DNA of 64,000 bases from Tubulanus polymorphus (lineage: Eukaryota; Nemertea; Palaeonemertea; Tubulaniformes; Tubulanidae): assembly GCF_964204645.1 (NCBI RefSeq), contig NC_134027.1, positions 6,746,485 to 6,810,484 on the forward strand. Reading direction: 5' to 3'. The position numbers and the translations under genes were made by a program. Shown here one piece after another: positions 30,903 to 33,900 of the stretch. The notes beneath the pieces were generated by a model. That model saw nothing but the letters and a program-made list of their open reading frames with translations, had not been told where the DNA came from and searched no databases. Each line of letters opens with the position of its first letter. Within the stretch, counting starts at the first letter, position 1.

Positions 30903-33900
30903 TCATCGTTGCATACTTTCACGTCTTGCAAGCCGTTCACACCGTGGGCACTTGCTACCACGTCGAATGTAACAATGTCTGAAAATATGAATTGTCAGCG
31001 AGACCATGCACCATTACGTAAGATTGTATGCGATAGCAAGTTTCCAAAGGTACCAGCTTTGGCGAGTAACGCTTAATCGAAATAGCGAGCAACACTTACT
31101 TGTGTAATACAGCAGAACACGATGGACAGACAGTAGCAATAGCATCAAATGGAAAAAGTACCTCATCAGAGTCACACAACTCGCAGATATAACCTTTAGC
31201 TTGGCATAACTAGAGCAAAGAAAAGACAATTGGTTCACTTTTTCAAAGGAAGAATGTACGGTTACCAGTACAATTTATGAAACCACCTGCTCACCTGACA
31301 ATCAGTTTTTATATGCTGGGCGAAACTAGCATGGATTTTGGTGACGCTCGGGAGCAACAAGTCGCCTTGAAGATCGAGCAAATCACGAAGTGAATACATG
31401 TCCGAATTGTCAACAAAATGTTGACGATCTTGTAACTAGATTTTTTAAATATATTTGATTATTAGACAACACCAAACTTGAATTTCAAAAACAGAAGAAC
31501 ATCTAATTACCTGAAGTAGTAGTTTACTTGCCAAAGCCTCTTGACAGTTCAGAATATATTTCTTCATGATTAAAATTTGTTCACGCAATCTCTACAAATA
31601 ACCGAATAATATACGACTGACTGCATATCATGATGAATTTGACGAGCCTGTTTAGTTAGAATGTTGTAATGTATACTTTTATTTCTTGTAATTCATCCCC
31701 AAAACTGAACAACATTGGATTCATATCTTGTATACGTAGAACAGCCTTCTTACTCATCAAGTGCAAAAATTGTTTCGATGCTCGACATACCTGATGGAAA
31801 AAGTAGAACCTTTTATAGCGCCCAAGAATGAGTTACTGGGTTATGAAGTGCCAAATGATCGTTTAATTTGTGCATATTTACAGCGTCAAAAGTACAGGCC
31901 TAGAAGTATGTAATCTTACCCTCCTTTGGTCAAAATCCCAGTTATGTATCACACGAGCTGGTATGATCGCAACATCATTCCAATGACAATTTTCGCAATA
32001 ATAGTCACCAGTATAATCACATTGACGTGGCTCGGAGAAACTCTCTTCTACAAAGAGAAATGCAATAATAGTCACCAGTATAATCACATTGACGTGGCTC
32101 GGAGAAACTCTCTTCGACAAAGAGAAATTGGTACAGTTTTCAACTTACAACTAGCAAATCACTTCATGAATTTTGAGATTTCTTGTGAAACTTACTGAAT
32201 GAAATAACAGTTCTGCATTCAGCACATCGAAACTGCTGGGCATCTAAACCTTTTTCTGGACAGATTGATAGGCAGTATGTAGGACATTCATTCACTTTTG
32301 TTATCGCACACATTCTTGTTATCACATTTAAACACTTGCTATGACAGCTGTACCCGCATACTAAAATAATCAACGAGTTACTTGGGTGTTCTATCGAGTG
32401 AACCAAAACTAGACTAATTCACTATGATTAACTTACTTTCACATCTGTACCACAATTGCAACATGCCCCATATCACAGTATTACACCTTTCGCAATGACG
32501 CTGTGAACTTTTACTGTCTTGGTGTCGAAATCGATGGCCTAAAACAAGTTTCCAGTCTTCTGGTGCTTCTTCAGGTCCTTCCTGAAAGAAAATAAATAGA
32601 CGATACTGGTACCAGGGAAAATTGTTCAGTCATACTTAGCATCGTTTATTGAACATTAAAATTTTTCTCTACCTTAGCTTCTTGTAATCGCAAACGAAGC
32701 TGAACTAATTTATGTACAAGATTATTTTTTTTCTGTTGATTATCACCCGCTTCTTTGATGAGCTCTTTGCAATTTTCGATGGCCATTTCTAATTCTTCAG
32801 TAGTTGACAGACCAAATACACCCTAATCATCAAACAAATAAAACAACTTCAGGTAACAAATTTGGTGATTGATATTCCCCTTATTGAAACAAGGGGTCCA
32901 GGAACACTATGTCAATCTGGTGAAATGTTTGCCAATTCATAATTCAACTATCCAATGCCCTGTTGTGATCATATATACAAACTAATGAGCTTGAAAGTCA
33001 CCACAATCATAGAACATGTCATGAGCATGATTATGCAATTGATTTGGGTCACAGAATATGCATAAGTACCAATACATACGAAAATATCATGTCATTTCGC
33101 TATTCAACGCCTCCTAGTGAACATATACAGAAACCAATGACCTTTTGAAACTCCTGAAACTTCAGAATTTATTTCTCTTCATGATTTACTTCTCTGCAGT
33201 TGATTGTGGAAATAATACATGTTATTTTGCAATATGCAATGACCTTGAAATGTCAGCACAATCATTTTTGTGGTGACAGATCAGCATCCAACCGACCCAA
33301 TTTTCTCATGATGATAGTCCTGAGGGATACATACACCTAGAAACATAAAGTATAATGGCGCCGGCGCTAAGGTCCCTATAGTGGGCTGAAAGCCTCCACA
33401 ATTTCCTACCTCGGGTTGCGAAAAATGATCCTCAGTAAGCCCTAAATCAGCAAAGCTCACATCATTTTCATCGACATCTTTGGAATGCATATATGAACTC
33501 AGATCCGACCAAGAATCAGTCGAACTTGAAATAGAGTATCGATAACCAGTGACATCATTATCATTAGTAACTTGAATACCTGAATAACAAAATTCTTAAG
33601 TTTATACGAAACTGACAATTCAATAATCAAATGTCTTTTCCTCAATTTCGCGCTACCCTTACTCTGAGGACTAGTTTTATTTGATAAAGAATTGAAACTT
33701 GAATTCACAGCGAAGTGGTCCTCCTCCATGAAGATGTCTCGGTTGAATGGATTAAAACGTTGAGGTTTCACTGAATCGTTAGAAGCCACCGATCTCTGAG
33801 ACGAGGGAGACTGATTGCCTGAGAGTTCTCCAGTAACAATGGAAGACACAGCAGCAGCGCTTAGATTGCCGCTTATATTGTTAGTCTGTAGCCCGTCGTC

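Follow-up and report, generated by a model that had tools for sequence, protein, structure and literature searches.

A tandem duplication across a splice acceptor in a DEF8-like gene, with a single base change that disables the upstream acceptor

Internal tandem duplications that span an intron-exon boundary are reportedly the subject of work by Gao and Lynch in 2009. In the RdRp gene of potato, a tandem duplication over such a boundary led to a new intron by donor activation (PMC4974935), and in Drosophila intron gain or intronization has been traced to exon duplication (PMC2891723). Choice among 3' sites is described in terms of AG competition, the AG exclusion zone and the first-AG rule (PMC1431707; PMC7317903). 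The locus described here lies in a DEF8-like gene within a 64-kb window (the whole stretch of DNA analysed). It resembles the potato case in being a short tandem copy of an intron's end and an exon's start, with branch site, pyrimidine tract and 3' site carried along, and differs from it in that no new intron has appeared; the existing intron is 67 nt longer and the protein is unchanged. It shares with the Drosophila cases that duplicated exonic sequence has turned intronic in one of its two copies, whereas there a duplicated AG/GY proto-splice site is needed and the intron position is new; the DEF8-like intron has kept its position. In line with the AG exclusion zone, loss of an upstream AG lying between branch point and acceptor keeps the correct 3' site in use, which is the opposite of what happens in diseases where a mutation introduces such an AG (PMC1431707; PMC7317903); unlike in those cases, the upstream AG came from the duplication and the branch point has probably moved as well. 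The original acceptor reads TAGAAG (32050-32045), with two AGs 3 nt apart, and so has the form of the NAGNAG acceptors (PMC3250501), but the upstream copy has lost its first AG, leaving TCGAAG inside the intron. The partial duplication of BRCA1 exon 10 provides a contrast, as there the mRNA keeps the duplicated sequence and contains a stop. The present case is not an intron gain by tandem duplication: donor and acceptor sequences are the same and the intron is only longer. No published example combining a duplicated acceptor, a longer intron and a lost upstream AG was found in a search largely limited to literature outside the subscription journals. Duplication across an intron-exon boundary is thus already known, and the DEF8-like case is an ordinary small gene accident. 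What gives it interest is that a conserved gene survives duplication of a splice junction through one base change that removes the competing acceptor, and that former coding sequence has become intron and probably branch site. The case fits the known rules of splicing and breaks none.

The features referred to below are the following, all on the minus strand.

30905..32822: DEF8-like gene with C1 and RH domains, rebuilt as nine coding exons
32196..32360: preceding exon, which includes the end of the C1 domain
32048..32195: present intron, 148 nt, with the donor GTAAGT starting at 32195
31920..32047: exon after the duplication, start of the RH domain
31995..32061: downstream copy (TRF, comparison), last 14 intron nt attTCTCTTTGTAG and first 53 exon nt, bearing the presumed working acceptor
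32062..32128: upstream copy (TRF, comparison), 66/67 identical, TCG replacing TAG, now within the intron
32048..32050: TAG, the presumed working acceptor, with the mismatched base at 32049 and AAG directly after it; 9.78 bits
32115..32117: TCG at the acceptor point of the upstream copy, disabled by the A-to-C change (gene strand) at 32116
32108..32114: AAGAGAG, which the upstream copy retains and which contains three candidate acceptors, all weak by matrix score
32140: A of agttgAaa, candidate for the original branch point, 26 nt ahead of the upstream acceptor point
32066..32084: stretch of the former exon that holds the candidate new branch points

Joined from 32822 to 30905, the nine exons form an open frame of 369 residues; the amino-terminal part of the gene lies further upstream, to about 34251. 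When the frame is spliced at the downstream copy, the protein matches PF13901 (RH_dom) over positions 1-205 of 206 (E 9e-69), and a C1 domain (PF00130, E 1e-7) precedes this complete Rubicon-homology domain. The alignment of the protein to 6wcw, an RH structure of RUBCN, is likewise unbroken (E 1.3e-37). Two other RH loci are present in the genome. We take the gene to be probably DEF8, and not RUBCN or PLEKHM1, from the order of C1 and RH and from its likeness to DEF8 sequence. The domain matches support the attribution of the affected exon to DEF8 in the preliminary description, in the sense of a DEF8-like gene. With the downstream TAG, the protein crosses the junction with nothing inserted, and since the conserved RH domain is then intact, the sequence points to this TAG as the acceptor in use. 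Splicing at the matching point of the upstream copy (32114) would lengthen the transcript by 67 nt and put it out of frame, with a TGA at the 33rd codon on translation, in agreement with the earlier claim that use of the upstream copy would soon meet a stop.

The second copy directly adjoins the first, and base-by-base comparison of the two finds 66 of 67 positions identical. TRF delimits the array at exactly 31995-32128, with a period of 67, 2.0 copies and 0 indels. The unit, read along the gene (minus) strand, is ATTTCTCTTTGT[A/C]GAAGAGAGTTTCTCCGAGCCACGTCAATGTGATTATACTGGTGACTATTATTGC, the alternative base being the sole mismatch (T at 32049, G at 32116 on the plus strand), which makes TAG of one copy and TCG of the other. 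An identity this high between adjacent copies excludes chance. Each copy comprises 14 nt of intron end and 53 nt of exon start, so that these adjacent direct copies constitute a tandem duplication across a splice acceptor. All three elements of the preliminary description (the two 67-bp copies, their coverage of the acceptor with the first 53 bp of the exon, and a lone difference falling on the acceptor itself) were recovered by both procedures or by direct comparison. The bases flanking the copies differ on both sides (c at 31994 against t at 32061; t at 32129 against g at 32062); as the copies share no flanking bases, the junction is blunt. The duplicated sequence was matched at one place only in the 268-Mb assembly, and searches of prokaryote and viral sequence collections returned no relatives of the region. 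In its original form, the intron would measure 81 nt.

Acceptor strength was scored with a matrix built from 22 acceptors of the same genome, nine from DEF8 and thirteen from four myosin genes, whose introns were bracketed by myosin-head profile matches. Fifteen myosin candidates had been collected, and two were dropped as misplaced (a deviation of 4 codons; alternative AGs). An ab initio search for introns by codon usage over 264 kb was abandoned as too noisy, its -3 composition being near random. The 22 reference acceptors score between 4.7 and 13.3 bits and have C or T at -3 in all but one (21/22). The presumed working acceptor, which reads tttctctttgTAG/AAGAGAG on the minus strand (final intron G at 32048, exon from 32047), scores 9.78 bits, a value that is slightly circular, the site itself being among the 22; the upstream site with its TAG restored also scores 9.78. 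As it stands, the upstream copy offers at best an AG of -0.23 bits. The A-to-C change disables the upstream acceptor, and because what is left scores below every reference, the upstream copy is almost certainly intronic.

The duplication also bears on the branch point. Four AGs separate the old branch-point region from the downstream acceptor. Splicing from the old branch point, for which 32140 is the best candidate, should therefore not easily reach 32048 if the first AG is favored. The fourth AG of the upstream copy ends at 32098, and none occurs from 32097 to the downstream acceptor, an AG-free run of about 50 nt whose branch-like sequences all lie in the duplicated former exon. Branch-like A residues lie at 32084, 32081, 32072 and 32066 (-37, -34, -25 and -19 from the downstream acceptor), tggtgAct at -25 being the best placed. 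These two considerations suggest that the branch point now probably lies within the former exon.

The explanation that we hold with good confidence joins the duplication, the A-to-C loss of the competing acceptor and a moved branch point. A tandem duplication of 67 bp with a blunt junction would have repeated the tail of an 81-nt intron together with the start of the next exon. Judging from the intact protein, the TAG of the downstream copy would be used in splicing, keeping the frame, and the upstream copy would have been absorbed into the intron, now of 148 nt. The A-to-C change would have removed an upstream AG that was otherwise an equal competitor yielding a frameshifted transcript, leaving a short upstream pyrimidine tract with no good acceptor after it. 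The branch point that sets up splicing would then probably be one in the former exon, some 25 nt ahead of the acceptor. The change was probably kept because alleles lacking TCG were harmful; it may have been a second hit, or an error made during the duplication itself.

How far selection must be invoked depends on the odds of the change. Under a uniform mutation model, the probability that a lone change hits the upstream AG is 2/67, or about 2/90 when the tolerated sites in the other copy are included, so the neutral chance is about 2-3%. Such a value is not negligible for a feature that was picked as striking. A sample of 200 kb contained several tandem arrays, among them at least one array of 56 bp in two to three copies at 96%. 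A rough count, in which acceptor density is assumed and which holds to an order of magnitude only, suggests some tens of acceptor-crossing duplications genome-wide before selection; about one of these with its upstream AG lost by chance alone is possible. The same duplication could thus be accompanied by a TCG that is neutral, having struck sequence already intronic, with the downstream site and its own branch point used from the start. The former exon does offer candidate branch points and an AG-free run to the downstream acceptor, the odds that one change in 67 strikes the AG are about 3%, and short tandem duplications of high identity are not rare in the genome. Against this, the upstream site before the change was equal in strength (9.78 bits), nearer the donor and frame-breaking, which makes neutrality unlikely, and we regard this account as doubtful while granting it some weight. 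Because the upstream site matched the other in strength, lay closer to the donor and would lead to a stop when used, selection for the change, or survival only of alleles born with it, is likely. The view of the preliminary description that the TCG looks selected or compensatory is therefore plausible on account of the equal strength of the upstream site, but is tempered by its resting on a single change with a neutral chance of 2-3%. A genome-wide tally of upstream-AG loss against the chance expectation would make the case a real test.

The upstream copy may also be spliced in at times, as a minor isoform, from one of its residual AGs. An AAG ending at 32112 would add 64 nt (-0.2 bits) and a GAG ending at 32110 would add 62 nt (-0.9 bits), both with a frameshift, while a GAG ending at 32108 would add 60 nt in frame, or 20 extra residues (-1.7 bits). 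Of the 22 reference introns, one ends in AAG, indicating that such sites exist in this genome, and the frame through the insert is open if entered at 32108. However, the scores of -0.2 to -1.7 bits compare with a reference minimum of 4.7, roughly one in three random stretches of 20 codons would be open, so that the open frame is uninformative, and the insert would break the zinc-binding start of the RH domain. Such a minor isoform is improbable on these grounds, although the remaining AAG, 3 nt past the lost AG, may see weak use. Thus, of the earlier proposal that one mutation restored a single usable acceptor, the collapse of the upstream site from 9.8 to at best -0.2 bits stands, while the exclusiveness is softened by the AAG, GAG and GAG that persist, weak, within 7 nt. 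That the second copy might be an assembly artefact, unreal or carried by one allele only, is very improbable: a haploid assembly does display a single allele, but the contigs are large (27.8 Mb for the contig in question, C3, and 77 in all), the sequence is unique, the copy ends are clean, and the mismatch falls exactly on a functional base, unlike what a duplicated-read artefact would give.

The age of the event is only loosely bounded. One difference over about 81 free sites corresponds to 0.0003-0.069 substitutions per site, or about 0.03 to 25 million generations if the mutation rate is taken as 2.8e-9 to 1e-8 per generation. A recent origin, as first proposed, fits one mismatch in 67 bp, but the upper bound reaches roughly 7-25 million generations. 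Given so wide a range from a single difference, high identity over 67 bp does not imply a variant still segregating, as had been suggested. A bolder version holds that the splice-site duplication was compensated in two steps, that the intermediate with TAG in both copies persists in the population or in a sister species, and that the former exon serves as branch site. We consider it quite improbable; if true, so young a two-step case would be a natural test of AG competition.

The 64-kb window contains no other tandem array with a period of at least 20. A 9-bp array (CCACCACAG, 12.7 copies) occupies 46015-46128 and would encode, on the minus strand, a glycine/cysteine-rich repeat within an open frame of 197 codons. 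On the plus strand at 39206-42316, an Ig-like exon is followed by an exon that appears TIR-like by eye, as in an IL-1-receptor-like gene, here in a genome of invertebrate appearance; in Pfam this locus gave a weak Ig match only, the exon at 41747-42316 being without a match. Together with the TTAGGG telomere repeats described below, these Ig- and TIR-like exons speak against an insect, and a search with COX1 returned no match. Just to the right of the window, a 64-bp unit forms an array of 44 copies (L015:5254-8068, on G000:C3), and satellite-like arrays of 89/178 bp are found at L023:2-5814 and 8891-10000. A muscle-type myosin gene at G000:C4:4125126-4126944 (L030) contains four tandem exons, all matching the myosin-head profile at about 112-152, which look like mutually exclusive alternative exons. 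Finally, TTAGGG telomere repeats occur in several separate blocks near contig ends (G000:C4:25817-64566; C7:21563989-21571725), scattered over distances from kilobases to tens of kilobases, as subtelomeric repeats with interspersed telomere sequence.
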